A stretch of DNA of 32,478 nucleotides. It comes from Bacteroidaceae bacterium. Its GTDB lineage: Bacteria > Bacteroidota > Bacteroidia > Bacteroidales > Bacteroidaceae. The stretch lies in contig JAEEGS010000040.1 of NCBI GenBank assembly GCA_016280445.1, positions 117,998 through 150,475 of the forward strand, written 5' to 3'. Below are positions 1,691-16,520 of this stretch, one piece after another. The notes beneath the pieces were generated by a model. That model worked only from the letters and a program-made list of their open reading frames with translations. It searched no databases and was not told the origin of the DNA. A program made the translations under genes and the position numbers. The first letter of the stretch is position 1, and each line of letters starts with the position of its first letter.

Positions 1691-1767
1691 ATATATTGAT
1701 TTGCTGCAAAGTTCGAGGTTTTCACGCTGCTGGGCAATCCCCTACGTACGGTATTCTTCTACCCTTT

Positions 1768-2949
1768 TTATGGTATCGCCCTTACCGCCTGCACGATGTC
1801 CTCGAAGATGTCGTCCACATCCTCCAAGCCCACAGAGAGGCGGATGGTGGTGTCGCGCACGTCCATCTCTGCTTTCTGTTTGCCGCCGAAAGGACCGAAG
1901 ATGGTGCTGTAGGGATGGATGGCGAGGCTCTTGTTGTCGAAGAGGTTCGTCGCCCTGCGGATGAGTTGTAGGTGGTCGATGAAGTTGAAACAGGTCTTGC
2001 GGTCAGCAAGGTCGATGGTCAGCATCGCGCCTGCCGTCTTGCCAAACTGCCTCACCGCCAAGTCGTGGAAGGGGTTGTCTTCCAAACCGATATAGTTGAC
2101 CTGAGTTATTTCGGGCACCTCCTTCAGTTTCCTTGCCAACGTGAGCGCGTTCTGTGCCTGCACCCGATAGCGGGCATCGAGGGTTTCCAGTCCGAGACTC
2201 TGCATATAAGCCGCATGAGGCGACATGTAACTGCCCACGTTGAAGAGCAACTCGAAGCGGATGCGCTGATTCACCACAGGGAAGGTGCCATAGTCGATGA
2301 CCAGACCGCCCAACGACGTCGCACCGCCAGAGATGTACTTCGTGCTGCTCACCACCTCCACATCCACACCCAGACGCTTGGCGCTGAACTGCGTGAAGGG
2401 GATGACCGTCGTGTCGGCAATGAGTGGAATGCCCCTCTCGTGAGCAATCTCAGCCAATGCCGAGAGGTCAGCCACCTCCATCTGTGGGTTCGTGACAATC
2501 TCCAGATAGAGACAAGCCGTATGCTCGTCGATGGCATCACGCACCGCATCGAGGTCAAGCAGGTCAATGGAGCGAGTCTCAATGCCGAGACGTGAGAAGG
2601 TGCGGTTCATCAACGCCACCGTATTGCCAAACAGATGACGCGAAGTGACGATGTTCTTCCCCTGCTCCACAAACACCAGCAAGGCATTCGTGATGGCTGC
2701 CATGCCCGAACAGAAGGCAAACACGTTCGTTGCCCCAGTCAGGGCTTTCACCTTATCCTCGAGATACATCACGGTAGGATTCATCACCCTCGAATAGTCG
2801 GGTGCCAGCACTCTTCCACAGAAGGCGTTCGCCATCTCCTTTGCCGTCTCAAACTCGTATGCCGCCGTATGATACACTGGCATTGCAATCGCCCCATAGG
2901 CATCTTGTCTCGGCAATTTCGTGTCAATTGCTATTGTTGCCTTATTCAT
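1768..2949 (-). CDS. Cys/Met-metabolism PLP enzyme (O-acetylhomoserine sulfhydrylase / cystathionine lyase-synthase family)
   Basis: A 393-residue fold-type I PLP enzyme when started at MNKATIAID, 10 bases after the regulator's stop codon; 24 further in-frame codons upstream overlap the regulator and look non-coding. Family marks are YSRVMNPT (52-59, binds PLP phosphate), SGMAAI (81-86), IADTTVIPF (178-186) and the PLP lysine K204 in SSTKYISGG. The usual Gly-His after this lysine is replaced by Gly-Gly, and the usual DN before the cofactor-stacking strand reads DT. The family makes homocysteine or cystathionine or degrades sulfur amino acids, and the exact reaction cannot be read from motifs. 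Next to a carrier-E1 pair, a MetY-like homocysteine synthase fed by a protein thiocarboxylate is the most attractive hypothesis. Confidence 0.85.
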   Translation of the reverse strand: MNKATIAIDTKLPRQDAYGAIAMPVYHTAAYEFETAKEMANAFCGRVLAPDYSRVMNPTVMYLEDKVKALTGATNVFAFCSGMAAITNALLVFVEQGKNIVTSRHLFGNTVALMNRTFSRLGIETRSIDLLDLDAVRDAIDEHTACLYLEIVTNPQMEVADLSALAEIAHERGIPLIADTTVIPFTQFSAKRLGVDVEVVSSTKYISGGATSLGGLVIDYGTFPVVNQRIRFELLFNVGSYMSPHAAYMQSLGLETLDARYRVQAQNALTLARKLKEVPEITQVNYIGLEDNPFHDLAVRQFGKTAGAMLTIDLADRKTCFNFIDHLQLIRRATNLFDNKSLAIHPYSTIFGPFGGKQKAEMDVRDTTIRLSVGLEDVDDIFEDIVQAVRAIP

Positions 2950-2959
2950 TCTCTCAACT

Positions 2960-3619
2960 TTAAATACAGTATTCCACCATCTCCACCAATCCAGCCCGTA
3001 GGGCATATTTTGTGGCCTCATACACAGTGTTCACATTGATTTTTCGGAAGATGTTCTTCTTGTGGGTCGTGATGGTGTGGATGCTCGAATTGCGTTCTGC
3101 CGCCACCTCCTTCACCGACTTGCCCAAAGCGATGAGACGGAGCACCTCACGTTCGGTGGCGGTGAGGGGGTCGTCCTGTTCGGTGGCTGTCTGTGGAGTG
3201 AGCAGCAGGTTGGTAACCTGATGGCAGAGGAACCGCACGCCTGTCACCGCACATTTCAGTGCCGTGATGATTTCCTGTGCCGAGTCGTCCTTCAGTATCA
3301 TGCTGAACTGCTGCTCCACGCTGAGTCGGCGGATGAGTTGCTCTGTCAGTTCGTCGGAGAAGAGCACCCACAGGGCGAAGGGGAACCGCTCGGAGAGGTT
3401 GAGGAGTTCGTCGCTGCTGGCGAGGTCGAAGAGGGTGTAGTCTATCACCACCACCGATGAGGGGTTCTCCTTCAGTTCGGCAATGAGTTCAGCGCGCCGG
3501 CTGAGTTCTTTTACTTCCAGATGCTCCACGTTGGCTAGTGCTCCTCTGATGAGATTTCTCAGTCCCAGCCGTGTGATGTCCTGATTGTCTGCCAATATGA
3601 TTTGTCTTGTCTCTGCCAT
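2960..3619 (-). CDS. LuxR-family response regulator (receiver-like domain plus HTH)
   Basis: A 219-residue protein started at MAETRQIILADNQD; the 42 in-frame codons upstream contain the promoter and are excluded. The N-terminal receiver-like domain keeps the acidic pocket (D11), a candidate phosphoacceptor D60 in VVVIDYTLF and K110 in MILKDD. The C-terminal 65 residues are a LuxR/GerE helix-turn-helix (LTATEREVLRLIALGKSVKEVA and HTITTHKKNIFRKINV). It is the first gene of the sulfur operon, with only 10 bases to the PLP enzyme, and no sensor kinase is visible. It is divergent from the SusC gene carrying the first 59-bp promoter element, so it is the obvious local candidate for controlling that regulon, though nothing in the sequence proves it. 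Confidence 0.9.
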   Translation of the reverse strand: MAETRQIILADNQDITRLGLRNLIRGALANVEHLEVKELSRRAELIAELKENPSSVVVIDYTLFDLASSDELLNLSERFPFALWVLFSDELTEQLIRRLSVEQQFSMILKDDSAQEIITALKCAVTGVRFLCHQVTNLLLTPQTATEQDDPLTATEREVLRLIALGKSVKEVAAERNSSIHTITTHKKNIFRKINVNTVYEATKYALRAGLVEMVEYCI

Positions 3620-3749: not shown

Positions 3750-3808
3750 GGTATGCATATCGCCTGTAAAGGGTATTTCGCTAGTGGGGGAATGTCTATA
3801 CCTTTGCA
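3750..3808 (+). promoter_or_regulatory. 59-bp promoter/operator element, copy 1 (susC-like)
   Basis: Begins GGTATGC, has GGGTATTTCG at element positions 22-31, and ends in the -7 box TACCTTTGCA. Spacing is identical to copies 2-4. This is the most divergent copy: the right half-site CGAAAT found in copy 2 is degenerate here (GGGAAT). It lies 36 bases before the SusC-like start. Confidence 0.75.
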
Positions 3809-3844
3809 CTCGAAATTTACAAAAAACTTCAACGTATATATATT

Positions 3845-6800
3845 ATGGTAAAGAACAGGTTGTTTTTGGCAGTGGCATTGACCATTGCATCGGTGCTGAC
3901 CGCAGCGGGTCAGACCATTACGGGAACGGTATTGGATGCCACGACAGGCGAAAGCATCATCGGGGCATCGGTCAAGTATGGTGAAGGAAAGGGCGTGGTG
4001 ACCGATTATGACGGGCATTTCGCCATCGCGGTGAACAGGTTGCCTATGAAACTCAGCATTACCTACACGGGTTACAGACGCCAGGACATCACGGTGTATG
4101 ACGAAGAGGAAGACATCGAAGTGAAGTTGACCGAAAAACGCAACTACCTCAACGATGTGGTGGTGGTGGGATACGGCACACAGAGCCGCACCCAGTTGAC
4201 AGGTTCGGTCACCACAGTAAAGGCCGACGTGTTTGAAAACAGCACAGCCACCACGCTGGACGGTGCGCTGAGCGGTCAGGTGGCGGGTCTGAATGTGACG
4301 GCGGCGAGTGGACAGCCTGGTGCGGAGAGTAGCATCCGCATCCGTGGCGGCAACTCGGTGAATGCCTCGAACGAGCCTCTGTATGTGGTGGATGGGTTCA
4401 TCTACTACAAGGATGCGAGCAATAACGGCACGGGCTTGGGTGCCATTGAGAGCCACCTGAACCCCTTGGCCACCATCAATCCCAACGACATTGAGAGCAT
4501 TGAGGTGCTGAAGGATGTGAGTGCCACGGCCATTTATGGTTCACGTGGTGCGAACGGTGTCATCCTCATCACCACGAAGAAGGGAAAGCTGGGTGAGAAG
4601 AGTGCCCACATCGCCTATGGTTACAGCCTCGGACTGAGCAGCGCGAGCAAGCACCTCGACCTGTTGGATGCCTCGGAGTGGGCACAATTCCAAAAGACCT
4701 ATTTCAGCAATAAGGGTGGTTACACCGACGAGCAAATCGCAGCCCTGGGCAAGGGCACTGACTGGCAAGATGCTGTGCTCCGCACGGCTGTGCAGCAGGG
4801 ACATGAGCTGTCGGTGAGTGGCAGCACCGACAAAAGCCGTTATGCTTTCTCGGCCAACTACACCGACCAAGATGGCATCGTGGTGGGCACAGGTTTCCAG
4901 CGTTACAACTTCCACCTCAACACGGAGTGGGAGTTGCAGAAGGGCTTGAAGTTTGGTGTCAACGCCACCTATGGACGCTCGAAGCAACAGGGCTTCACCA
5001 CCACCGAGGAGCAGGTGTTCAACTCGTCGCCCTTCTCCGCTGGCATCACCAACAGCTTTGTGTATGCGCTGCTCATGCCACCTGTCATTCCAGTGTATAA
5101 TGAAGATGGCTCGTACAACTTCACGAACCCTTACGAGTATGCTTACTTTGCCATTGGCGACCACGCAGCCAACCCTGTCTACGACCTAAAAGAGAGTGTG
5201 GCGGAGAACGTGAACAACTACCTGCTCTCCAACGTGTGGGCAAGTTACAAGCTGGGCGACTTCACGCTGAAAGCCACCGTGGGACTAAATAGCGAGAAAC
5301 TGACGCAAAATTACTTCTCGGGGGCATACACCTCGCTGGGCATGGCCACTCAGGGCATTGGTGGCACAGGCAACCGTCAGACGGATGTGTGGCAACAGGA
5401 GTACACCCTGTCTTATCAGAAAGAACTGGGCATCCATCAGATTGACGCCTTGGCAGGTTACACCAAGCAAACCAGCACCTCCACCTACAGTTCCATCCGC
5501 ACGAATCAATTCACCAACGAGACGCTGAAACACTACAATCTGGGCGACGGTTCGGGTATCTACACCCCTCAGACAGGCATCAGCAAGAGTACCCTCAACA
5601 GCCTCATCGCACGTGTGAACTACACCTTGCTCGACCGCTACAATGCCACCGCCACGTTCCGTGCCGACCATTCCAGCCGCTTCTCGAAACATCATCGCTG
5701 GGGCTACTTCCCATCGCTCGGACTCTCGTGGAACGCAGACAAAGAGGCTTTTCTGGCCCATGCACGACAGCTGGATTACCTGAAAGTGCGCCTCACGGGT
5801 GGACTCGTGGGCAATCAGGAGATTCCCGACTATGCCTTCATCACCTCTTACAGCACAGGCTCCTACGGTGGCTCTTCCTCTTATGCCAAGGCCAACACCG
5901 CCAACAACAACCTGAAATGGGAGACCACCGCCTCTTATAACCTCGGTGCCGACCTCGGACTCTGGAGCGGACGCTTCGATGTGACGCTCGACCTCTACTA
6001 CAAGAAAACCTCCGACCTGCTGCTCGACGTGCCCATGGGCTTTGCATCGGGTGTGACCAGCCAGTTGCAGAATGTGGGCAATGTGGAAAACAAAGGTATT
6101 GAGTTGGCCGTAAGTGGCATCCTGCTCAAGCGTCGACACCTGCAGTGGACAGCCGCTGCCAACCTTGCCCACAACCATAACGAGATTACCGACATGGGCA
6201 AGACCAACGACGTGCTCCAAGGAGCTGATGCCCAGCAGATTCTGCGCAAGGGCGAAGCACTCGGCTCGTTCTATGGCTTGAAGTACATCGGTGTCGTGCA
6301 GAACGATGAAGATGTCAGCCAGCTCCCCACCGTGAATGGTATTGTGCCCAAGCCTGGCGATGCGAAGTTTGCCGACGCCAACGGCGACGGCAAGATTGAC
6401 GGCTACGACCGCGTCATTCTCGGCTCTATCCAGCCCAAACTCACCTACGGCTTCTCTTCTCAACTGCAAGTGCGCGACTGGGACTTCAACATCACCTTCG
6501 CCGGCAGCTATGGGTCTAAACTCTACAATGCCCTGGGCAGACGATTGGAGCAGACTGGCGACTCCTACAACGTGCTGAGCACCGTAAAGGATGCGTGGAC
6601 ACCTGAGAACGGCAGCAACTCACTGCCCCTCGCCTCCACCTCGCGTCCCTTCTCCTACGTCGACAGCCGTTACATCCAGAGTGCCAGCTACTTGAAGCTC
6701 CGCAACCTCACCATCGGTTATCGTCCCCGACTGCCCAAGTCCTTTCCTCTCTCCTTGCGTGTTTATGCCACTGCCACCAACCTCTTCACCATCACCCCTT

Positions 6801-6895
6801 ACAAGGGTTACGACCCTGAAGTAAGCAGTGGAACGGACAACGGAGCCTACCCCTCGTCACGAACATTTACTTTTGGCGTAAAAATCACATTATAA
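3845..6895 (+). CDS. SusC/RagA-family TonB-linked outer-membrane transporter
   Basis: A 1016-residue protein of normal SusC length. A signal peptide (about 1-22, ending TAAGQ) is followed by a carboxypeptidase-regulatory-like domain (ITGTVLDATTGESIIGASV), the TonB-box and plug entry DVVVVGYGTQ at 104-113, plug motifs (IRIRGGNSVNASNEPLYVVDG, then IESIEVLKDVSATAIYGSRG) and a long beta-barrel. A DANGDGKIDGYD loop near residues 843-854 resembles a calcium-binding EF-hand-like loop common in SusC barrels. It forms a TonB-powered pore that works with a SusD lipoprotein lid; the cognate SusD is probably the next gene. No glycan enzyme is co-transcribed, so the substrate cannot be assigned. It has its own terminator, so SusC and SusD are separate transcription units. 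Confidence 0.95.
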   Translation: MVKNRLFLAVALTIASVLTAAGQTITGTVLDATTGESIIGASVKYGEGKGVVTDYDGHFAIAVNRLPMKLSITYTGYRRQDITVYDEEEDIEVKLTEKRNYLNDVVVVGYGTQSRTQLTGSVTTVKADVFENSTATTLDGALSGQVAGLNVTAASGQPGAESSIRIRGGNSVNASNEPLYVVDGFIYYKDASNNGTGLGAIESHLNPLATINPNDIESIEVLKDVSATAIYGSRGANGVILITTKKGKLGEKSAHIAYGYSLGLSSASKHLDLLDASEWAQFQKTYFSNKGGYTDEQIAALGKGTDWQDAVLRTAVQQGHELSVSGSTDKSRYAFSANYTDQDGIVVGTGFQRYNFHLNTEWELQKGLKFGVNATYGRSKQQGFTTTEEQVFNSSPFSAGITNSFVYALLMPPVIPVYNEDGSYNFTNPYEYAYFAIGDHAANPVYDLKESVAENVNNYLLSNVWASYKLGDFTLKATVGLNSEKLTQNYFSGAYTSLGMATQGIGGTGNRQTDVWQQEYTLSYQKELGIHQIDALAGYTKQTSTSTYSSIRTNQFTNETLKHYNLGDGSGIYTPQTGISKSTLNSLIARVNYTLLDRYNATATFRADHSSRFSKHHRWGYFPSLGLSWNADKEAFLAHARQLDYLKVRLTGGLVGNQEIPDYAFITSYSTGSYGGSSSYAKANTANNNLKWETTASYNLGADLGLWSGRFDVTLDLYYKKTSDLLLDVPMGFASGVTSQLQNVGNVENKGIELAVSGILLKRRHLQWTAAANLAHNHNEITDMGKTNDVLQGADAQQILRKGEALGSFYGLKYIGVVQNDEDVSQLPTVNGIVPKPGDAKFADANGDGKIDGYDRVILGSIQPKLTYGFSSQLQVRDWDFNITFAGSYGSKLYNALGRRLEQTGDSYNVLSTVKDAWTPENGSNSLPLASTSRPFSYVDSRYIQSASYLKLRNLTIGYRPRLPKSFPLSLRVYATATNLFTITPYKGYDPEVSSGTDNGAYPSSRTFTFGVKITL

Positions 6896-6903
6896 AACAC
6901 TTA

Positions 6904-6937
6904 AAAGAGGATAGAACAAGCGTTCTACCCTCTTTTT
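6904..6937 (+). terminator. Rho-independent terminator after the SusC-like gene
   Basis: AGAGGATAGAAC pairs with GTTCTACCCTCT around a 4-base loop (one A/C mismatch) and is followed by a run of T. It lies directly between the SusC stop and the next promoter element. Confidence 0.8.
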
Positions 6938-6996
6938 GGTACATGAATACCACATCATCGGGATTTCGGGCATGGCGAAATGTCCGTACCTTTGCA
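6938..6996 (+). promoter_or_regulatory. 59-bp promoter/operator element, copy 2 (susD-like)
   Basis: Begins GGTA and contains the perfect inverted repeat ATTTCG-N7-CGAAAT, then TGTCCG and TACCTTTGCA. The TTTC of the left half lies 19 bases before the -7 TA, the place of the Bacteroidetes -33 box. The downstream sequence GCAGATTTAG is shared with copy 3. Confidence 0.85.
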
Positions 6997-7051
6997 GCAG
7001 ATTTAGAAACAACTAAAATATTTTAAGGTAAAAAAGAAAGGAGATTACAAA

Positions 7052-8695
7052 ATGAAAAAAAATCTACTCTTCGCTACATTGGTAGCAACAAGCCTTTTGG
7101 CAGGCTTCTCGTCATGCTCATCAGATGACGACAACAGCAATCAAGTGACAGACGACAACGTGGTGGCAGATGACCAAAGTGCCCTCTCGCTGGTAAATGG
7201 CGTGTACAGCCACTGGCAGCCACTCAGTTCATCGTTCTCATTCATTATCGAGCTGAACTCGAACAAACTCACCTCCTTCGAGGGTGAGGAAAACGAGGCA
7301 GGTCCTGTGAACAGCCGCTTTGAGCAGGAGCCAACAACATGGTATCAGGTTAAGATATTCAACCACCTGTTCCTCGGCATCACACAGGCCAACGAAGCCA
7401 TCACCACCGTGACCAACTCTTACAAGGCTGGCAAAGTCTCTCAGGCTGGTTACAATGCCGCTGTGGGCAAGGCTAAGTTCCTTCGTGCTTTGGCATACCT
7501 GAAGCTCGTGCAACTCTGGGGTGAAGTGCCTGTCTATACAGAAAAAGGCGGTAGCACCACCGATCGTCAGAGCATCGACAACGTGTTCAACCAGATTGTC
7601 AGCGACTTCACCGAAGCAGAATCTCTCCTGAAGGACTACGACGGAGACCCACGCATCCCCTCCAAGCAGGCAGCACAGGGACTCTTGGCACGTGCCTACC
7701 TCGTATGGGGTGACAACCCACTCTCTCAGGCAGAAGTGGCAGCCATCGCCAACGGACAGACTGACCCTGATTTCACGAAGACCGACAGCCGTCTGGAAAA
7801 GGCGGTGGAGTATGCCAACAAGGTCATCAACAGCGGTAAACTTGCCCTCGACCCAGAATATAATAAGTTGTGGGGACGCGAATATGAGAGCAACAAACGC
7901 CACACCAACGAGCACCTCTTCACCATTGCTCACGATGGCGACAAGAAGGACGCACAGGGCAACCACCAGACCCACTGCTCATGGACATTCCCCTACCAGA
8001 ACGGTGAGAACGGTGAGGGTTACAGCCAGAACCATACCGAGGTGTCTGACGACGATCTCTATGAAGACTGGAAGCGTGAGCAGCCCAACGACAAGCGTTT
8101 GGCAGAAACTTACTTCGTAGCAATCAAAAACCCTGAGACGGGCAAGATCCACCACTACCTCTCACCCTTCTACACCCCCATCAACGGCAAGGGCGTGGAC
8201 CAGAGCTACGACAATGCTGAGAATCTGGAAATCACTCAGAACTCCGTTGACCGCATCGAAATCCGCTACGCAGAAGTGCTCCTCATCAAGGCAGAAGCCC
8301 TCGTACAGCTCGGTCGCAACAGCGATGCAGCAGAGCCATTCAACCAACTCCGCACTCGTGCCGGCATTGCCACCGTCAGCGCTCCCACCTTCGAGCAAAT
8401 CAAGCGTGAATGGGACTATGAGTTCACTTATGAGCAGTTCTCTGTGCTGAACTCCTACCGCTGGAAAGACCTCATCTCATCTGTCAGGAAAGTGGCGAAC
8501 TACAAGCACTTCCCCAACGACTGGAAGACCAGCACCGGCAACACCTACACAGCCGATCAAGAGGCATACTTCACGAAGATTCACAATCACCTCAGAGCAA
8601 AGTACACCAACGTGCGCGGTAAGCACTACCGTCAGCCCATCCCAACAGGTCTGAAGGGTGAAGCCCTTGGAATCAGCCAGAACCCTGGGTACTAA
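7052..8695 (+). CDS. SusD/RagB-family nutrient-binding lipoprotein
   Basis: A 547-residue protein with a lipoprotein signal (MKKNLLFATLVATSLLAGFSSC, lipid-modified Cys at 22) and an acidic SSDDDNSN linker typical of surface export. The rest is the helical TPR-like SusD fold, with conserved stretches such as AKFLRALAYLKLVQLWGEVPVYT, AAQGLLARAYLVWGD, the segment IEIRYAEVLLIKAEALVQLG and the C-terminal RQPIPTG. It would act at the cell surface as the lid of the upstream SusC-like transporter. The presence of its own copy of the 59-bp promoter, after a terminator, is atypical, because susCD pairs are normally one transcript. The substrate is unknown. Confidence 0.94.
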   Translation: MKKNLLFATLVATSLLAGFSSCSSDDDNSNQVTDDNVVADDQSALSLVNGVYSHWQPLSSSFSFIIELNSNKLTSFEGEENEAGPVNSRFEQEPTTWYQVKIFNHLFLGITQANEAITTVTNSYKAGKVSQAGYNAAVGKAKFLRALAYLKLVQLWGEVPVYTEKGGSTTDRQSIDNVFNQIVSDFTEAESLLKDYDGDPRIPSKQAAQGLLARAYLVWGDNPLSQAEVAAIANGQTDPDFTKTDSRLEKAVEYANKVINSGKLALDPEYNKLWGREYESNKRHTNEHLFTIAHDGDKKDAQGNHQTHCSWTFPYQNGENGEGYSQNHTEVSDDDLYEDWKREQPNDKRLAETYFVAIKNPETGKIHHYLSPFYTPINGKGVDQSYDNAENLEITQNSVDRIEIRYAEVLLIKAEALVQLGRNSDAAEPFNQLRTRAGIATVSAPTFEQIKREWDYEFTYEQFSVLNSYRWKDLISSVRKVANYKHFPNDWKTSTGNTYTADQEAYFTKIHNHLRAKYTNVRGKHYRQPIPTGLKGEALGISQNPGY

Positions 8696-8735
8696 ATCAA
8701 AATCTTAGCCATAATAAATAGTATTCATCAAGAGG

Positions 8736-8768
8736 GGGCTGGCATACAGCAACAACGTGTGCCAGCCC
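8736..8768 (+). terminator. Hairpin terminator/attenuator between SusD-like gene and FISUMP lipoprotein gene
   Basis: GGGCTGGCATAC (8736-8747) pairs with GTGTGCCAGCCC (8757-8768) with one G-U pair and a 9-base loop, followed by TTATTATAT. The downstream lipoprotein has no clear promoter of its own, so some read-through from the SusD promoter is likely. Confidence 0.65.
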
Positions 8769-8799
8769 TTATTATATTCACACAAAAACAAAATAAAAC

Positions 8800-9510
8800 A
8801 TGACACACAACAAGTATTTCATCCTCGCCACAGTGGCAATTCTCAGTGTGGCATCCGTCTCTTGCAGCAAAGATGACAATGAAGCAGAAAAAATCGTGAA
8901 CAATGCAGGTGAACCTGTTGCAATAGGTGGCACAGTTGGAGAGATTGTTGACCTCGGATTATCAGTTAAATGGGCCAACCAAAATCTCGGAGCAGCCTCT
9001 GAAGAAGACCTTGGCAAATACTTTGTCTTCGGAGAGACAGAACCCAAGACGAACTACACCTGGGCCACCTATAAATGGGGCGAAGCTGATGCTTTGACTA
9101 AATATCAGTTGTCTTCGGTAGACAGCTCTGTTGGCAATGGTCTCCGCACCCTTGAACTCTCCGACGATGCAGCACGTGTCAACTGGGGCGGCAGGTGGCG
9201 CACTCCCACTCAAAAAGAGATCATAGAACTGATTGAGAAAACCACATGGACTTGGAAAAATGTGAACGGCGTGAATGGTCACGAAGTAGTTGGACCTAAC
9301 GGAAACAGCATCTTCATTCCCGCTGCTGGCTATCAGAACGGCACAGAAACCTACAGCGTTGGAACAAAAATCATCCTCCTCTCTGCAACACTCATGGGAT
9401 GGACCACTTACGATGACATTGAGTACGTATCCATTGGAAGCGGTTTCGCTCCACAGTGGAGTTTAAATGACAGGCAATGGGGTCGTTCCATACGTCCAGT
9501 TTGGGACTAA
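8800..9510 (+). CDS. FISUMP-domain lipoprotein (Fibrobacter major paralogous domain-like)
   Basis: A 236-residue predicted lipoprotein: signal peptide and lipobox (VASVSC, Cys at about 22), then a short KDDNE linker. The body has the characteristic wording of this Bacteroidales family: VDLGLSVKWANQNLGA, YFVFGETEPKTNYTWATYKW, LELSDDAARVNWGGRWRTPT and GPNGNSIFIPAAGYQNGT, ending RSIRPVWD. The family is a surface or secreted beta-rich module of unknown biochemical role. It lies 104 bases behind the SusD-like gene with a hairpin between. It may be a third surface component of that uptake system, or an unrelated insertion, since it abuts a decayed gene. Confidence 0.8.
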   Translation: MTHNKYFILATVAILSVASVSCSKDDNEAEKIVNNAGEPVAIGGTVGEIVDLGLSVKWANQNLGAASEEDLGKYFVFGETEPKTNYTWATYKWGEADALTKYQLSSVDSSVGNGLRTLELSDDAARVNWGGRWRTPTQKEIIELIEKTTWTWKNVNGVNGHEVVGPNGNSIFIPAAGYQNGTETYSVGTKIILLSATLMGWTTYDDIEYVSIGSGFAPQWSLNDRQWGRSIRPVWD

Positions 9511-9522
9511 ATCCTTTTTACA

Positions 9523-9857
9523 TGACAAAGAACTTCATCCCCTTTAGTCTCTTCATTACGGCAGCCATCGGGCTGTCGTTTTGTGGTGCTGCCAATATTG
9601 ACTTATTGATGGCTTCCAGCATCACAGGCATGATTTGTGACGGCGGCAATCACGGTTGCACCATGAAAGGCATCGTAGCAGTGGATGCTGCCTATCAATC
9701 AGTAGGATTGGCTCTTGAGGGCATTGCCATTGGGCATGTTCACGGCATCAATGGCAAAACTCCCGAAGAAACCATGCGCAACATGGGACTCATCGCTTCG
9801 CCAGGCATGGTGAAGACCGAAGGGGTCATTGTTGACATCATGAAGGGGAAACAGTAG
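9523..9857 (+). pseudogene. C-terminal remnant of L-cysteine desulfidase (CyuA/YhaM, UPF0597 family)
   Basis: About 111 codons are open, but they match only the last quarter of a family that is normally about 430 residues long. SSITGMICDGGNHGCTMK corresponds to the Fe-S segment of the enzyme, with two cysteines separated by six residues as in the family, and the ending MVKTEGVIVDIMKGK matches its C terminus. Catalytic and cluster residues from the N-terminal three quarters are missing; the space upstream is occupied by the FISUMP gene. The intact enzyme splits cysteine to pyruvate, sulfide and ammonia. The last 20 bases overlap the end of tcdA on the other strand. The alternative is a short stand-alone protein using the ATG at 9523. 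Confidence 0.65.
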
Positions 9858-10644
9858 CGTCTTGAATCACCAGTCCAGCCAGCGTGAAACCGAAGATGGC
9901 AGTGATATGGGCGAGGGAACCATTGATTTGGGCTTTCGATGAGCACCACTCGTGATTGAGCAACGAGGAATCGCCTGGTCCCGTCTTTGCCTTCGGACAC
10001 ATGCACCGTTCCGTGCCACAAGTCGCATTATGACCTTGATTTGTGAGCAACTCGTCACTAAACACACATTGGAACTTCTTGGCAGGGAAATGCTTGTCGC
10101 GCTTGAAGCGGTTGCGCAGGGCACGAGCGAGGGGGTCGCCCTTCACCTTCCAGAACTCGGTGACCTGGATGCGTGTGGGGTCGAGTTTCAGGGCGGCACC
10201 CATCGACGAGAAGAACTTGGCTTTCGTCTGGCAAGCCATCAGGATGAGCAAGGCTTTGTCCTTGAGCGAGTCGATGGCGTCGATGATATAGTCGTAACTG
10301 CCAAGGTCGAACTCATGGGCAGTCTCTTCCGTGAAAATCTTCTGCAAGGCGATGATGTCTGCCGAGGGGTTGATGCTGAGGAGCCGTTGTTTGAGCGCAT
10401 CCACCTTCACTTGCCCCACCGTCTCGGAAGTCGCCATCAGTTGGCGGTTGATGTTGGTGATGCATACGCGGTCGGAATCGACAATTGTCAACTGTCCGAT
10501 GCCACTGCGCACCAAACTCTCGGCACACCAGGATCCTACCCCTCCCACACCGAAGAGAATCACCCGCTTCTGGGCTATCCGTTCCATTACTTCGTTACCC
10601 AGAAGCAGTTCTGAACGTCGGAAAATTGGTTGTATGTTTGCCAT
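9838..10644 (-). CDS. tcdA: tRNA threonylcarbamoyladenosine dehydratase (E1-like)
   Basis: A 268-residue protein started at MANIQPIFRRSELLLG; 17 upstream codons overlap the promoter and are excluded. It has the E1-like ATP loop GVGGVGSW at 32-39, TIVDSDRVCITNINRQL at 53-69, DAIDSLKDK, and the C-terminal NGSLAHITAIFGFTLAGLV typical of CsdL/TcdA. It cyclises t6A at position 37 of ANN-decoding tRNAs to ct6A using ATP. It differs from the ThiF-like protein at the left edge in lacking a carrier neighbour. Its own -7 box lies 20 bases upstream. The gene is divergent from the candidate copper operon, with a 23-bp-period array between them. Confidence 0.93.
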   Translation of the reverse strand: MANIQPIFRRSELLLGNEVMERIAQKRVILFGVGGVGSWCAESLVRSGIGQLTIVDSDRVCITNINRQLMATSETVGQVKVDALKQRLLSINPSADIIALQKIFTEETAHEFDLGSYDYIIDAIDSLKDKALLILMACQTKAKFFSSMGAALKLDPTRIQVTEFWKVKGDPLARALRNRFKRDKHFPAKKFQCVFSDELLTNQGHNATCGTERCMCPKAKTGPGDSSLLNHEWCSSKAQINGSLAHITAIFGFTLAGLVIQDATVSPS

Positions 10645-10663
10645 GATTCTTCTAATTTGGTTG

Positions 10664-10672
10664 GCAAAGGTA
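10664..10672 (-). promoter_or_regulatory. -7 box of tcdA
   Basis: TACCTTTGC on the minus strand, a full match to TAnnTTTGC. Confidence 0.6.
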
Positions 10673-10750
10673 CGACTTTTTATCGAGAATAACAAAACCT
10701 ATAGAGACGTATTGTCGTAGTCAACAATGACAAAGTGGAAAAGCCCCCTT

Positions 10751-10888
10751 TCCGACACTTCCACAGCCCTCGAACCGACATCGTCGACGTCGGTCGACCG
10801 ATGTCGTCGAGGTCGGTCAACCGATGTCGTCGACATCGGTTTAGGGGATGTGGAGGCACCCATCAGGGGGATGTGGAGGTGCAGAAGC
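10751..10888. repeat. 23-bp-period array K1 with dyad-symmetric cores
   Basis: Three adjacent units begin at 10774, 10797 and 10820, exactly 23 bases apart. Each holds a 19-bp core at 10775-10793, 10798-10816 and 10821-10839. The third core is a perfect dyad: CCGATGTCG, central T, CGACATCGG. The first has one mismatch between its halves and the second two. The period continues in two looser units that both contain GGGGATGTGGAGG (10844 and 10867) and in one on the left containing CTTCCACA. No open reading frame here has coding character. It looks like a set of cooperative operator sites or a small repeat element. Confidence 0.8.
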
Positions 10889-10906
10889 CGACTCTACCCC
10901 GTTCGT

Positions 10907-10965
10907 GGTATGCTTATAGCGCATGAGGGGTATTTCGGGCATGGTGAAATGTCCGTACCTTTGCA
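10907..10965 (+). promoter_or_regulatory. 59-bp promoter/operator element, copy 3 (YtkA-like lipoprotein operon)
   Basis: Begins GGTATGC, has ATTTCG-N7-TGAAAT (one mismatch in the right half-site) and ends in TACCTTTGCA. The right half, from ATTTCGGGCATGG to beyond the -7 box, is nearly identical to copy 2. Confidence 0.85.
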
Positions 10966-10975
10966 GCAGATTTAG

Positions 10976-11078
10976 TAAAGGTTAAAGTTGAAAGGTTAAA
11001 GACCATGCGGCCTGTTTGCCAACACCGCGTCAGCCTTCTTTAAACTTTAAACTGTAAACTCTAAACTTAAAAAAAATA
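10976..11078. repeat. Heptamer-armed hairpin element C (5' UTR of the YtkA-like gene)
   Basis: The left arm GGTTAAAGTTGAAAGG plus TTAAAGA faces a right arm of TTTAAAC, TGTAAAC and TCTAAAC heptamers. The core lies inverted relative to elements A and B: CCATGCGGCC at 11003-11012 and CGCGTCAGCC at 11026-11035. It begins about 10 bases after the -7 box, so it fills most of the roughly 130-base leader of the mRNA. Confidence 0.75.
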
Positions 11079-11103
11079 TTAACGACAAAAAACTTAGAGA
11101 ACA

Positions 11104-12051
11104 ATGAACAAGAAGGTATTAATGTTGTTTTTAGCGATAGCATCGCTGGGACTGGTGTCGTGCAACAGCAACGACGATGAGACGGGAATAGTGATTGACG
11201 GTATTGACCTGACGAGCGATGTGGATTGCTGCTCGGCCGAGGAGGCGCTGCAGGTGTACAGATTCATCCAGACGGTGCACATCATCCCCGAACTCTCCAC
11301 TTCTGTGGACGGTAAGTATGACGTGTGGGCCTATACGAAGACGGGCACCCTGCACAGGGGCTACAACGACCTGTACTTCGTGGTGACAAAGAAGAAGTCG
11401 GGCAACTACGTCAAGAACTTCAACATCAAGAATGTCACACCGCTGATGCACATGGTGAAGATGGACATGTGGCACAGCACCCCTGTGGGCGGCACCTTCG
11501 AGGTGTTCGACACGACACGTCCTGCCGTGAAGCGCGGATGGGTGTCGCTGCTGATGAACACGAGCGACGCAGGCAACTGGCAGTTCTCCTACGACATCGA
11601 GGTGCTGGGCAGCAAGGGCGGCGTGGAGAAGCAGGCCATCAACGTGGAAGCGCTGCCCGAGGGACAGGACTGGCTCAAGAACTTCAAGGTGGGCGATGAC
11701 ACGTACTTCCTCTCCTTAGTCAATCCATCAGACTGGAAGACAGGCACGAACACCATCCAGGCCTACATCTCGAAGAAGAGCACCCCTGCCACCACACCCT
11801 ATGCCTTGGCCACGGAGACCTTCACCATCGAGATAGACCCTCGCATGCCAGACATGGGCAACCACACGTCACCTGACAACGTGGCTCTGACCAAGCAGCA
11901 GGACGGCAGCTACACAGGCACCATCAACCTGACCATGACCGGTCTCTGGCGCATCCACCTGACGGTGAAGGACTCGAAGGGTAACATCGTGGCAGGAGGC
12001 GATGACCTGAAGGATGGGTTCAGTTCACTGTATTGGGACGTAACACTTTGA
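11104..12051 (+). CDS. Met/His-rich lipoprotein with two YtkA/FixH-like modules (candidate periplasmic copper-binding protein)
   Basis: A 315-residue lipoprotein (signal 1-19, lipobox LVSC, Cys20). Two similar beta-sandwich-like halves are visible, about 70-165 and 195-313; each has a YtkA/FixH-type pattern of a Met/His cluster followed by beta-strands ending in GxW. Cluster 1 is TPLMHMVKMDMWHSTP (M115, H116, M117, M120, M122, H124) and cluster 2 is DPRMPDMGNHTSPD (M248, M251, H254). A CC pair sits at 42-43. Such Met/His sets are usual in periplasmic Cu(I)/Cu(II) binding proteins. It is transcribed from the 59-bp promoter and precedes an OprC/NosA-like receptor, which supports a metal-handling role, but metal specificity is inference. 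Confidence 0.75.
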   Translation: MNKKVLMLFLAIASLGLVSCNSNDDETGIVIDGIDLTSDVDCCSAEEALQVYRFIQTVHIIPELSTSVDGKYDVWAYTKTGTLHRGYNDLYFVVTKKKSGNYVKNFNIKNVTPLMHMVKMDMWHSTPVGGTFEVFDTTRPAVKRGWVSLLMNTSDAGNWQFSYDIEVLGSKGGVEKQAINVEALPEGQDWLKNFKVGDDTYFLSLVNPSDWKTGTNTIQAYISKKSTPATTPYALATETFTIEIDPRMPDMGNHTSPDNVALTKQQDGSYTGTINLTMTGLWRIHLTVKDSKGNIVAGGDDLKDGFSSLYWDVTL

Positions 12052-12125
12052 AATTGAAAGTTGAAAAATTCAACTGTCGGAAGTTACCGGTTCTTTGCGA
12101 GCAAAGCGCTACGCGATGGCGCTCA

Positions 12126-12242
12126 GGAGTTATTGGAGTTATAGGAGTTACAGCCTATACTCTGTCAACTGTGGGGAGGAGTTTTCACGCCAGCATTACA
12201 TTCGGCTTTAACTCCTCTAACTCCTCTAACTTCTTTAACTCC
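12126..12242. repeat. Nonamer-armed hairpin element E
   Basis: Three tandem 9-mers starting GGAGTTA (12126-12152) face four complementary 9-mers of the TAACTCCTC type (12209-12242). AGCC and GGCT bound the inner loop, as in the heptamer elements. Just upstream, CTTTGC-GA-GCAAAG forms a short hairpin. The element fills the 224-base gap between the lipoprotein and the receptor gene; no -7 box was recognised in it. Confidence 0.7.
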
Positions 12243-12275
12243 AAGAAAGTGGACCTTGCGAAACTTAAGTGAAAA

Positions 12276-14279
12276 ATGATTGGAACTTTACTTTTAGCTA
12301 TATTATCACCCTCTGACACCATAATCACCTCGTCACACCTCATCGACGAGGTGGTAGTGGTTTCGGCAGCAGGGGAGGGAAGGAAACGTTCGGTGAAGGG
12401 GCTGGCGGCAAGCATCGACGAGCACTTGGCGGAGCTGTCGCACGTGGACTTGGTGAGACGTGGCTCATATGCCTGGGAGCCTGTGGTGAACAACATGGCA
12501 ACGGAACGTGTGTCGACCACCATCGACGGCATGAAGATTTTCTATGCCTGCACGGACAAGATGGACCCTGTGACGTCTTATGTGGAGAGTAGCAACCTGC
12601 AGAGCATCCTGCTCAATTCGGGACTGAACGGAAATCCGCAATCGACGGGCAACATCGGCGGGAGTTTGGACTTAAAGTTGAGAAAGGCGGGATTTGGGGG
12701 AGAATCCCTGTTCTCCTCCAAAACAGGGGGACTTGGAGGAGGGCTGGTCGTTGGTCATGAAACTAACGGACACCTGCAGGTGTATGGAGCGGATGGAGTG
12801 GTGTCACTGCCGAGGTTCTACACGAATGTTGGGGTGTTCTACCGCCATGCCGATAACTATAAGGAGGGTGGAGGACGGAAGGTACCATTCTCGCAGTTCC
12901 AGAAGGTGAATGTGTATGACAACTTCGGGTTCCGTCTGACGGAGGAAGGGAACGACGTGGTGGAGGGTACGTTCATCTACGACCGTGCCAGCAACGTGGG
13001 CTATCCTGCCTTGAACATGGATGTGGCGAAGGCGGAGGCGTTCATTGCGTCGCTGTCGTATCGGCACCAGTTCGTGGAGGGGTTCCTGAATGCGTGGGAA
13101 ACGAAGGGGTATTACAACCACATCACCCACGTGATGGACGACACGAAGCGTCCCGATGTGGAGATACACATGGATATGCCCGGAAAGAGTTGGACAAGCG
13201 GACTCTACAGTCTGCTGACAGGAACGGGTGGGCGGCACGAGGTGCAGGCGAACTACGACCTCTACTACAACCGTCTCTTTGCCGACATGACGATGTATCC
13301 GGGTGGTGCCGCACCGATGTATATGGTCACATGGCCCGATGTGGGCACACTGAACACGGGTTTGGCTGTGAACGACCGCATCTCGCTGACGGGCAGGCAA
13401 ACCGTAACGCTCACGGCCAAATGGGCGATGCAGTGGCAGCGGCTCAACAACGAGGAGGGCTACTATGCGCTGAGGGTGTTCTTCCCTGGCATGAAGGACA
13501 GTTACAATCAGACCATCGGACGCATTGCCGCCACTTATCAACTATCAATTCTCAATTCTCAATTGTCAATAGGCGCTGGGTGGGGAAGCCGCGCACCGAC
13601 CGTGACGGAGGCGTATGGCTACTACTTGAACAACACGTTCGACCAGTATGACTACATTGGCAATCCGCGTCTGAAGAATGAGAGTGCGGTGGAACTGAAC
13701 TGTGCAGCCAAATTCTCAATTTTCAGTTCTCAACTCTCAATTTCCCTCGATGCCAACGCTTTCTTCTTCTCCAACTACATCATCGGCCAGTTCGAGAATC
13801 GCCTCTCGCCCATGACGGTTGGTGCCGAGGGAGTGAAGGTGTATGGCAACCTAAGCCATGCCACCATGGTGAACACGGCATTTACAGCCGACTGGAAACT
13901 CCTCCCGTGGCTGACATGGAACACGCGGCTGAGTTATGCCATAGGAAATGACGACGTGGGGAAGGCGTTGCCGCTCATCTCGCCATTTGCCTACACGTCG
14001 GGTATCAACTGTCAACTGTCTTCCATCAACTGCAAATTGACCGTGAAGGGCAATGCACGCCAGGTCAACTATGGCAAGAAGTATGGCGAGACCTCCACAC
14101 CTGCCTATGCCATCGTGAACCTCAGCGGACAATATGCATTCCATCTGCACGGACATGCCCTGACCCTCCGTGCTGGAGTGGAGAACCTGCTCGACAAACG
14201 TTACTCCACCTATTCCGATTGGTGCGACATCCCACAGAAGGGAAGGAATTTCTACACGAATCTGAGCGTGTCGCTCTGA
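12276..14279 (+). CDS. TonB-dependent outer-membrane receptor, OprC/NosA-like (candidate copper receptor)
   Basis: A 667-residue barrel receptor without the SusC-type N-terminal domain. After a short hydrophobic N terminus comes a TonB-box-like DEVVVVSAAG (24-33), a compact plug, and a barrel ending ENLLDKRYSTYSDWCDIPQKGRNFYTNLSVSL. The plug segment GMKIFYACTDKMDPVTSY holds C92 and M96 in the CxxxM arrangement used for copper in OprC; a second Met/His cluster IHMDMPG (H298, M299, M301) could supply the rest of a CxxxM-HxM-like site, though the second motif is not exact. It follows a Met/His-rich lipoprotein, probably in one transcript. Three heptamer repeat runs are embedded in barrel-coding sequence. 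The start is the first ATG before the DEVVV segment. Confidence 0.85.
   Translation: MIGTLLLAILSPSDTIITSSHLIDEVVVVSAAGEGRKRSVKGLAASIDEHLAELSHVDLVRRGSYAWEPVVNNMATERVSTTIDGMKIFYACTDKMDPVTSYVESSNLQSILLNSGLNGNPQSTGNIGGSLDLKLRKAGFGGESLFSSKTGGLGGGLVVGHETNGHLQVYGADGVVSLPRFYTNVGVFYRHADNYKEGGGRKVPFSQFQKVNVYDNFGFRLTEEGNDVVEGTFIYDRASNVGYPALNMDVAKAEAFIASLSYRHQFVEGFLNAWETKGYYNHITHVMDDTKRPDVEIHMDMPGKSWTSGLYSLLTGTGGRHEVQANYDLYYNRLFADMTMYPGGAAPMYMVTWPDVGTLNTGLAVNDRISLTGRQTVTLTAKWAMQWQRLNNEEGYYALRVFFPGMKDSYNQTIGRIAATYQLSILNSQLSIGAGWGSRAPTVTEAYGYYLNNTFDQYDYIGNPRLKNESAVELNCAAKFSIFSSQLSISLDANAFFFSNYIIGQFENRLSPMTVGAEGVKVYGNLSHATMVNTAFTADWKLLPWLTWNTRLSYAIGNDDVGKALPLISPFAYTSGINCQLSSINCKLTVKGNARQVNYGKKYGETSTPAYAIVNLSGQYAFHLHGHALTLRAGVENLLDKRYSTYSDWCDIPQKGRNFYTNLSVSL
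12706..12741 (+). repeat. Interleaved inverted repeats inside the receptor gene
   Basis: CCCTGTT (12706) and CTCCTCCAA (12713) are followed by their complements AACAGGG (12722) and TTGGAGGAG (12733). They encode the Gly/Ser-rich stretch ESLFSSKTGGLGGGL near residue 143-157, so a repeat-derived in-frame insertion is possible. Confidence 0.45.
13536..13570 (+). repeat. In-frame heptamer run (CAATTCT type) in the receptor gene
   Basis: CAATTCT is tandemly repeated with small changes and encodes QLSILNSQLSI in a barrel strand. A 21-base triple unit gives a 7-residue repeat with alternating polarity suited to a beta-strand. Confidence 0.6.
13710..13745 (+). repeat. In-frame heptamer run (TCTCAAT type) in the receptor gene
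   Basis: Degenerate heptamers TCTCAAT, TTTCAGT, TCTCAAC, TCTCAAT encode FSIFSSQLSISL. A third such run (TCAACTG units) lies at about 14005-14040. Confidence 0.55.
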
Positions 14280-14299
14280 CCTCCTCCTACCACATTCAT

Positions 14300-14358
14300 G
14301 GTATGCCCCTACCATACCAACGGGATTTCGGTGACGGTGAAATGTCCGTACCTTTGCA
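14300..14358 (+). promoter_or_regulatory. 59-bp promoter/operator element, copy 4 (binding protein-symporter operon)
   Basis: Begins GGTATGC, has ATTTCG-N7-TGAAAT, then TGTCCG and TACCTTTGCA, all at the same spacing as copies 1-3. It starts 21 bases after the receptor stop codon and leaves only about 24 bases to the next ATG. Confidence 0.85.
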
Positions 14359-14382: not shown

Positions 14383-15279
14383 ATGAAGAAGATATTGAAT
14401 TTGATTTTAGCCATGACGCTGGGCGTGGCATCCGCCTCAGCCCTCACGGCACAGAACGATGGAGTGATTACGGTGAAGACCAGCAAGGCAGGACGTACAC
14501 TGGTGGAGAAATGGGTGGCAGCCTACCGCGAAGAGCATCCCGAAGTGCAGATAGAACTCGTGTCGGGCAAGGCGAAGGAAGCCGATCTCACACTCGTCAG
14601 CACCGAGGTGGAGGGCATCAACGTGACCTACGTGGGACGCTATGCTCTGCTGCCCGTCACATCCGCCACCAATCCGCTGAAAGAGGACATCGAGAAACGG
14701 ACATGGACAGCCAAGGACCTGAAATGCCTCTTCTTTGTGGACGAAGAACTCGACGACGACGAGTTTGACAACGTGAAGAGCAGGAAAGAGCGGTTGGCCG
14801 ACAAACTGACCGTCTGCACAGGTAGTCACAGCACCAGTTGGACACCTGCGCTCGCTGCCCATTTCGGCCACACCAAGGACGACTTGAAAGGCAACAAAGT
14901 GGCAGGCGACGACTACTACCTGCTCGCAGCCCTCGAAGAAGAGCCTACAGCAGTGACATTCACCTCGCTCACTTTCCTCTACGACCTCCAGTCACGCCAT
15001 GTCCGCGAAGGCGTAGCCCTGCTGCCCCTTCATGTGAAGAAAGAACAGGGAGAGGCCTTCACCGACCTCGACACCGCCATCAACCTGCTCGAGCATCAGC
15101 CCATCGACGCCATCCCCGTAGAGCCTGTAGGCTTCACTTACGAGCAGTATGACAGCGACATTGAGCAATTTCTCTCATGGGTGCTCAGCGAGGGACAGGC
15201 CTACAACCACTCGCAGGGATTTCTCCAACTGGAAGAGAAAGATGTGAAACACCAAATCAAAGTGTTGGCTAACAGGTGA
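14383..15279 (+). CDS. Periplasmic solute-binding protein, PstS/ModA-like fold
   Basis: A 298-residue secreted protein: signal peptide MKKILNLILAMTLGVASASALTA, then GVITVKTSKAGRTLVEKWVAAYREEHPEVQIELVSG, the classic first beta-alpha-beta unit of type II binding proteins, and VGRYALLPVTSATNPL, resembling the strand and hinge of PstS-like proteins. There is no lipobox, so it should be free in the periplasm. The ATG chosen follows the promoter by 24 bases. It overlaps the symporter start by 1 base, so the pair is coupled, which is odd because such binding proteins normally serve ABC transporters and none is here. The ligand is unknown; phosphate is not supported by context. Confidence 0.75.
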   Translation: MKKILNLILAMTLGVASASALTAQNDGVITVKTSKAGRTLVEKWVAAYREEHPEVQIELVSGKAKEADLTLVSTEVEGINVTYVGRYALLPVTSATNPLKEDIEKRTWTAKDLKCLFFVDEELDDDEFDNVKSRKERLADKLTVCTGSHSTSWTPALAAHFGHTKDDLKGNKVAGDDYYLLAALEEEPTAVTFTSLTFLYDLQSRHVREGVALLPLHVKKEQGEAFTDLDTAINLLEHQPIDAIPVEPVGFTYEQYDSDIEQFLSWVLSEGQAYNHSQGFLQLEEKDVKHQIKVLANR

Positions 15280-16520
15280 TGGGAAAGATGAGCAAGAACA
15301 CGAACACAAAAACAAATCAGGGGCGCCAACTCGCAGTGTGGGTGGGCGCCCTTGCAGTCGGAGGCATTTTGGGATGGCTGCATGTGGAATGGCTCGACGG
15401 GCTGTTCCACTTCATCGCTACGGTCTTCACGCGGCTCTTCCAACTGGTGGCAGTGCCCACCATCGCATTGGCTGTCATCACCACACTCTCCTCGCTGGGA
15501 CAACGGCAGGAGACAGGCAGGATATTCCTTCACACCCTCACCTACACGCTCCTCACCACCGTGGCGGCTGCAGTGGTGGGGCTGGTGCTCTATGTGGTGA
15601 TCAGCCCTGAAAATATAGATGCATTCCCTACGAAAGAGGATTGGAGCGGATTGGTGAAAGAACTTTCCTACTATGACCATCTGCTTAGCGTGGTGCCCAA
15701 CAATGTGGTGGAGCCATTTGCCAAGGGCAATGTGCTGAGCATCCTGCTCATCGCAGCCGCAGTGGGACTGGCCTTGGCATTCATGCCGAAGAGCGACAAC
15801 GTGCAGGTGCTCATCAAGGGCATCTTTGGTTTGCAGGAACTGCTCTTTGTGCTCATCCGTGCGCTCATCCGAGTCTTGCCCCTGGGCATCGTGGCCTTTG
15901 CGGGTCAGTTGTCGGGCCAGTTGTCGGCAGGGGTGATGGTTGGCTCCTTGGGCAAATATGTGGCTGTGATTCTGGGAGGGAATCTGCTGCAGTTCTTCGT
16001 GGTGCTGCCGCTCTTCCTCTTGGCTAGGGGGCTGAACCCGTGGAAGGTGCTCAAGGCAATGTCGCCTGCTGTGCTCATGGCGCTCTTCACAAAGAGCAGT
16101 GCGGCTACCCTGCCTGTGACCATGCAGTCGGCAGAGGAAAGGTTGGGAGTGCGTGGTGAGGTGGCTCGGTTCGTCCTGCCCATCTGTACCACCATCAACA
16201 TGAATGGTTGTGCCGCCTTCATTCTTGTCACGTCGCTCTATGTGATGCAAAACGGGGGCATGAGGCTCGATTGGCCTACAATGCTTGTGTGGCTTGTGGT
16301 GGCAGTGGTGTCGGCCATTGGCAATGCTGGTGTGCCTATGGGTTGCTATTTCCTCACTTTCTCGCTCATGGCTGGTGTCGGTGCGCCGCTGGGTATCATG
16401 GGTCTCATTCTGCCTCTCTTCGCGGTGATTGACATGGTAGAGACGGCTGAGAACGTGTGGAGCGACTCATGTGTGTGTGCTATGGTAGCATCTTGCCCAC
16501 CACAAGACGGTCGCCCGTGA
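15279..16520 (+). CDS. DAACS-family amino acid:cation symporter, SstT-like in its substrate-site signature
   Basis: A 413-residue inner-membrane protein with about eight membrane segments and two re-entrant loops. TKSSAATLPVTM (271-282) matches HP1 (TRSSSGTLPVTM in GltPh). The TM7 motif reads NMNGCA (307-312) instead of NMDGTA. The TM8 signature reads DMVETAENVWSD (385-396), against DMGRTMVNVTGD in GltPh. The arginine that binds acidic side chains (R397 of GltPh) is therefore Glu388, which argues against glutamate/aspartate. As I recall, E. coli SstT (Ser/Thr transporter) also has ETA-x-N here. A small neutral amino acid such as serine, threonine or cysteine is the best guess. The first ATG after the overlapping stop was used. 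The 3' end overlaps the convergent glycosidase gene by 41 bases. Confidence 0.85.
   Translation: MGKMSKNTNTKTNQGRQLAVWVGALAVGGILGWLHVEWLDGLFHFIATVFTRLFQLVAVPTIALAVITTLSSLGQRQETGRIFLHTLTYTLLTTVAAAVVGLVLYVVISPENIDAFPTKEDWSGLVKELSYYDHLLSVVPNNVVEPFAKGNVLSILLIAAAVGLALAFMPKSDNVQVLIKGIFGLQELLFVLIRALIRVLPLGIVAFAGQLSGQLSAGVMVGSLGKYVAVILGGNLLQFFVVLPLFLLARGLNPWKVLKAMSPAVLMALFTKSSAATLPVTMQSAEERLGVRGEVARFVLPICTTINMNGCAAFILVTSLYVMQNGGMRLDWPTMLVWLVVAVVSAIGNAGVPMGCYFLTFSLMAGVGAPLGIMGLILPLFAVIDMVETAENVWSDSCVCAMVASCPPQDGRP

Follow-up and report, generated by a model that had tools for sequence, protein, structure and literature searches.

The window analysed here, a stretch of 32,478 nucleotides, contains a genuine repeated promoter of 59 bases, which resembles a binding site for a NarL-type response regulator encoded nearby (Table 1). 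Promoter and operator are probably combined in this element, the operator serving the regulator encoded at 2960-3619, which would switch on the acquisition of organosulfur compounds. A dimer of this regulator would bind the dyad ATACC-N8-GG(G/T)AT as two inverted heptamers (7-2-7) centred at about -42 and, placed next to the polymerase, would activate transcription from the -7 box TACCTTTGCA. The five presumed targets are cysK, the SusC gene, the SusD gene, a lipoprotein/TonB-receptor pair and a binding protein/symporter pair, whose products would capture organosulfur, probably cysteine-containing, compounds and fix their sulfide, and the regulator would act in its phosphorylated form, at sulfur or cysteine limitation. 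We infer binding, control by phosphorylation, the limitation signal and activation rather than repression, the last being favoured because of the position of the operator. If correct, this reading identifies a regulator together with its operator and the genes that it controls, and it links a SusCD pair to a non-glycan nutrient; the circuit could also be tested in relatives in culture that possess the regulator, among them Xylanibacter ruminicola D31d and Parabacteroides gordonii.

Table 1. Elements, operator cores and genes of the window discussed in the text (core: ATACC-N8-GG(G/T)AT).
Feature	Position	Strand	Context or evidence
Element copy 1	3750..3808	+	Before SusC; spaced pattern, matrix scan, genome model
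Element copy 2	6938..6996	+	Before SusD; spaced pattern, matrix scan, genome model
Element copy 3	10907..10965	+	Before YtkA-like lipoprotein and TonB receptor; pattern, matrix, genome model
Element copy 4	14300..14358	+	Before binding protein and SDF symporter; pattern, matrix, genome model
Element copy 5	1705..1763	-	Before cysK; -7 box variant GAACTTTG; matrix scan, alignment, genome model E 3.5e-12
Core, copy 1	3759..3776	+	Left half degenerate
Core, copy 2	6947..6964	+	
Core, copy 3	10916..10933	+	
Core, copy 4	14309..14326	+	
Core, copy 5	1737..1754	-	
cysK, cysteine synthase	660..1592	-	TIGR01139 451 bits, cut-off 351
Cys/Met metabolism PLP enzyme, directly behind regulator gene	1768..2949	-	PF01053 E 4e-95
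NarL/FixJ-type response regulator, candidate binder	2960..3619	-	GerE HTH PF00196 E 6.4e-15, residues 150-206
SusC-like TonB-linked receptor	3845..6895	+	TIGR04056 830 bits
SusD-like lipoprotein	7052..8695	+	PF07980 E 2e-23
Lipoprotein, unknown family	8800..9510	+	No Pfam match
SDH_alpha-type gene remnant, 126 residues	9477..9857	+	PF03313, last third only
YtkA-like lipoprotein	11104..12051	+	PF13115 E 1e-7
TonB-dependent receptor, weakly copper-receptor-like	12276..14279	+	TIGR01778 86.5 bits, cut-off 472
Periplasmic binding protein, weakly like LysR substrate domains	14383..15279	+	PF03466 22.3 bits, below cut-off 28; Cbl E 0.034
SDF (dicarboxylate/amino-acid) symporter	15276..16520	+	PF00375 E 3e-87

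The first four copies had been noticed from the letters of the DNA before any search (the sequence-only reading), and both their coordinates and their common letters proved exact; the spaced pattern matches the window four times, against no match in 100 dinucleotide-preserving shuffles. A matrix made from these four copies scores them at 79-90 and, elsewhere in the window, rises above zero at one place only, minus-strand positions 1705-1763 with a score of 3.1 (the runner-up scores -19), so that the window holds five copies. The fifth sits 110 bp upstream of cysK and was overlooked by the earlier statement that the other promoters have only a -7 box, its own being GAACTTTG and not TAnnTTTG. 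In the genome from which the window comes (3.07 Mb), a model of the five copies returns the five window sites at E 5e-17 to 3.5e-12 and, among the 150 of 662 first-look candidates that were scored, no further full-length strong match. The next match is partial (E 0.002) and fronts a small RNA, and the remaining listed ones are partial and weaker. This gap between E 3.5e-12 and 0.002 makes the regulon a local one in its own genome, as had been proposed, and the idea of a shared operator/promoter is supported too. Recent copying of one promoter, with no common regulator behind the copies, might be read from the roughly 13 further bases that copies 2 and 3 have in common beyond the element (GCAGCAGATTTAG); such an origin is extremely unlikely, since any two of copies 1-4 differ at 12-22 of their 59 positions while the core positions persist across many genomes. 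Between the ThiF gene and copy 3, at about 10775-10845, the window also contains a tandem-like run of GTCGACGTCGGTCGACCGATGTCGTCGA.

When 37 genomes of the genus and 24 others of the order were searched with the model, strong clusters of elements appeared in 24 of the 61, all 24 of them belonging to the genus. Forty stretches from relatives, picked because they held matches, make up 41 sources together with the window, and 93 sites were located in 40 of these (window included). Judged by the first same-strand gene within 350 bp, 75 of the 93 sites front eight recurring gene classes: binding protein (20), SusD (18), YtkA-like (16), cysK (9), the antiporter/SDH_alpha type (5, a label that stands for short matches to the remnant in the window, L065 alone having had its proteins scanned), SusC (4), a TonB receptor (2) and a second TonB receptor (1). 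The others lie before small-RNA loci (8), other genes (5) or none (5). The units that recur in the genus are binding protein/SusC, SusD, YtkA-like lipoprotein/TonB receptor, cysK, and antiporter plus SDH_alpha.

The architecture of the operator was derived from 92 sites anchored on the -7 box, which come to 86 without six small-RNA sites and to 59 without near-duplicates (two of small-RNA type, in L090 and L098, stay within the 59). Across these 59 sites, the best-kept columns outside the -7 box are T11, C14, G23, G24, A26, T27, T28, A42 and A43, and the top dyad among those scanned with 5-bp arms is ATACC-N8-GG(G/T)AT at element positions 10-27, with a fraction of 0.756 of its pairs complementary. 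This best dyad has the 7-2-7 spacing of inverted heptamers 2 bp apart (TACC-N8-GGTA), and its centre falls at about -42 when the TAnnTTTG box is taken as centred on -7. Strict symmetry is broken by G at position 25 in 33 of the 59 sites, and the right half reads GGGA in about half of them. Over the same sites none of three dyads tested pairs better than column shuffles (for ATACC-N8-GG(G/T)AT, 264 pairs against a shuffle mean of 264.4), and the symmetry of the operator thus rests on conserved columns, not on covariation. A second dyad, GGTAT-N4-ATACC (1-14), was discarded: GGTA at 1-4 is common, but the pairing count of 171 is below the shuffle mean of 179.6. A single 7-2-7 site does not account for the conservation of GGTA (1-4), of the ATTTCG stretch or of GAAAnGTCCG.

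The sequence-only reading had instead taken ATTTCG-N7-CGAAAT (26-44) as the key dyad, with its half-site simply replacing a -33 box. As a description of the copies this holds in part, the dyad being perfect in copy 2 and changed once in copies 3 and 4, but twice in copy 1; as an account of the operator it gave way to the dyad at 10-27, and the replacement of the -33 box found no support. That ATTTCG-N7-CGAAAT nonetheless serves a different regulator as its operator across the -33 region would agree with the state of this dyad in copies 2 to 4, with the nearly invariant ATT and with the well-kept A42 and A43, but it is very unlikely, given that positions 39-41 and 44 of the right half are weakly conserved in relatives (four of the six pairs are complementary in 17-28 of 59 sites) and that the left half shares positions with the right half-site of ATACC-N8-GG(G/T)AT. 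Even in its best version a fraction of 0.631 of the pairs is complementary over the 59 sites, and it was rejected as the main operator dyad on this weaker pairing. As for the promoter proper, PMC7366714 gives TAnnTTTG at -7 and TTTG at -33 for Bacteroides sigma-ABfr; copies 1-4 share TACCTTTG at -7 and copy 5 deviates from T to G, whereas TTTG is absent from the -33 region of the elements, which reads TTTC in copies 1-4.

The protein that would read this operator gives full-length matches to NarL-type regulators, and its closest solved relatives are VraR, RcsB, EsrB and NarL, with full-length structure matches that include VraR, RcsB and NarL. Pfam returned no receiver domain for it at E <= 0.001; residues D11, D60, S88 and K110 (phospho-acceptor Asp, Ser/Thr, Lys) are invariant in 10 aligned homologues, and the helix SIHTITTHKKNIFRK is nearly unchanged. 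No histidine kinase was seen among the 20 window proteins scanned. Among the closest known systems are the E. coli NarL/NarP operators: according to PMC4549865, an engineered NarL 7-2-7 site is TACC-N8-GGTA, and sites of the 7-2-7 type lie at -40 to -49 in the napF promoter and at -38 to -47 in that of yeaR. The present system has the same spacing, a GerE-type response regulator and a dyad near -42, as at those two promoters. In contrast, it belongs to another phylum and another promoter type, shows extra conserved blocks and a right half of either GGGA or GGTA, and concerns target genes for sulfur, not nitrate.

That one regulator, the product of 2960-3619, is the candidate was already part of the sequence-only reading, and it is supported by linkage and by co-occurrence with the element, making this protein the best candidate binder. 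The regulator was found in 32 of 45 genomes of the genus, and strong elements (E <= 1e-6, a line drawn after the data were seen) in 28 of these 32 against none of the 13 regulator-less genomes. For the first 37 genus genomes the Fisher p is 8e-7 with kinship ignored, and the co-occurrence is confounded because regulator and targets are physically linked. Eight further genomes of the genus, searched with a filter of a strictness different from that used for the first set, served as a test: strong elements occurred in four of four genomes with the full regulator gene and in none of three without it. One weak partial match (E 7e-4) was seen in the regulator-less G063, and in G061 the regulator is a 132-residue frame at a contig start only, with no strong element. 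The regulator-bearing genomes from which strong elements are absent are G008, G028, G032 and G061; in G008 and G028 the regulator is 58% identical, and weaker elements (28.1 and 26.6) lie upstream of cysK, pointing away from it. Where the regulator gene stands outside the SusC/SusD cluster, it adjoins another element-bearing unit, with cysK (G007), the binding protein (G010 and G011) or a TonB receptor (G020) as its neighbour. A cysK match exists in 12 of the 13 regulator-less genomes, and its identity of 59-64% indicates that it is probably of another lineage, and it was not kept as a control; no element stands before it, the best score there (26.2, in G004) lying on the far side of the gene.

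A common acquisition theme of the units, also proposed at the outset, is supported. It concerns sulfur, as seen in the cysteine synthase, the Cys/Met PLP enzyme adjacent to the regulator and, in some clusters, a PatB-type C-S lyase (L068). The nearest solved relative of the PLP enzyme is an O-acetylhomoserine sulfhydrylase, and the sulfur-assimilation gene directly behind the element is cysK, in the window and at 9 of the 93 sites. Clusters of relatives add antiporter-like and SDH_alpha genes (L065), and SDH_alpha proteins include cysteine desulfidases. Two full ORFs occupy, in the near-identical cluster of G013 (L067), the place where the window has its SDH_alpha remnant, and a deletion in the window is therefore likely. 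Taken literally, the names of the receptors would suggest a regulon for copper (metal) acquisition, with a TonB-copper-like receptor (86.5 bits), a YtkA-like lipoprotein and, in some relatives, an HMA protein together with another TonB receptor (the HMA domain protein in L065). Such a regulon is quite improbable, as the receptor scores far below the family cut-off of 472 bits and neither cysK, the Cys/Met enzyme adjoining the regulator nor the SDH_alpha partner fits copper alone; the evidence points to sulfur or cysteine rather than copper. Enterobacterial CysB/Cbl regulons likewise group cysK with sulfur-compound uptake under one regulator, which is there of the LysR type, whereas it is here of the NarL/FixJ type. 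A search of a collection of open-access papers found none on transcriptional regulators through which Bacteroidales control the acquisition of sulfur or cysteine. Between the window and G013, identity reaches 98-100% over most of the cluster, with lower values for cysK (89%) and the PLP enzyme (86%), suggesting that part of the locus was recombined or transferred.

Outside the genus, scanning named genomes yielded 217 relatives of the regulator, of which 80 were kept and the 56 most distant define loci L206-L261. At least one of cysK, Cys/Met enzyme, PatB, MoeB, DsrE and encapsulin is present at >=50% identity in 25 of these 56. Gene calling saw the regulator in 54 of the distant loci; in 21 of them at least one of five sulfur genes (cysK, Cys/Met enzyme, PatB, MoeB, DsrE) is found no more than 500 bp away from it, and in the other 33 none of these is. 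In 51 of the loci (L211-L261, 889,839 bp; regulators 46-58% identical) the genus matrix gives nine matches above 30, spread over eight loci, against none in 40 permutations of the operator columns. These matches front cysK in L217, L222, L252 and probably L220, the binding protein/SusC unit in L250 and L256, and a PLP-enzyme/cysK pair in L242. The presence of the regulator was the criterion by which these loci were selected, so that they attest to an association and not to specificity across the genome. Genes for MoeB-like, DsrE-like and family 2 encapsulin shell proteins adjoin cysK or the Cys/Met enzyme at L088:16511-19991, L244 and L256.

Over the whole order (295 genomes), a loose exact pattern, which misses copy 5, occurs in 35 genomes and the regulator (E <= 1e-30) in 24, and 12 genomes have the two together (Fisher p 1.2e-6, rising to 5e-6 when the genome of the window is left out, kinship being ignored in each case). 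The same pattern is found in 23 of 271 regulator-less genomes, and among 10 loci from the 11 other double-positive genomes, all outside the genus, only that of G333 fronts cysK. Far from the genus, the loose pattern is consequently not specific to the sulfur regulon.

Downstream of the next-best match in the genome of the window (C54:22981) lies the candidate small RNA (G000:C54:23044-23071, in L011 and L140; also L135-L163), and about seven distal matches from relatives stand before it as well. It consists of an almost invariant stretch of 26 nt, AATTACGTAAACCATAAAATGTTAGA, followed by a terminator hairpin; the hairpin stem varies among the 16 of 29 loci that were aligned, and 9 of its 11 pairs stay complementary despite the changes. 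By pattern search there are 29 copies in 28 of the 45 genus genomes, and a related promoter, (A/G)GTATTG and then TA(A/C)CTTTG, is visible at 27 of the 29 loci. Rfam gave no match at the eight loci searched. A short reading frame that begins with ATGTTAGAG extends into the hairpin; by eye its length is not conserved. Control of the small RNA by the regulator of 2960-3619 is unsupported, because seven genomes without that regulator carry it (G001, G004, G024, G033, G062, G063 and G067).

The presence of this related promoter in genomes that lack the sulfur-linked regulator raises the question of whether the element itself might be read by another GerE-type regulator, for instance a hemerythrin-GerE protein, with iron or redox as the condition. 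In keeping with this, loose TACC-N8-GGTATT matches adjoin hemerythrin-type genes (L284, L289) and precede a FeoB-like gene (L280), and iron deficiency raises a hemerythrin/response-regulator operon in P. gingivalis and B. thetaiotaomicron, as stated in PMC10434189. However, the hemerythrin-GerE protein, carried by 44 of the 45 genus genomes, is present in 12 of the 13 without a strong element, and the GGTATTG promoter occurs at only 2 of 30 fetched hemerythrin-GerE loci, which also speaks against this regulator reading a GGTATTG site of its own. Such an alternative reader is unlikely, and the regulator of 2960-3619 is retained for the element. A wider proposal, possible although doubtful, is that this NarL-type regulator governs organosulfur acquisition as a master switch across much of Bacteroidales, and that a sister operator (ATCAC/TACC-N8-GGTATTG), read by a paralogous regulator of the GerE type, drives the small RNA; one geometry would then have given rise to two codes, one for sulfur and another perhaps for iron. 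The loose matches at L280, L284 and L289 may represent a paralogous operator class linked to iron or redox.
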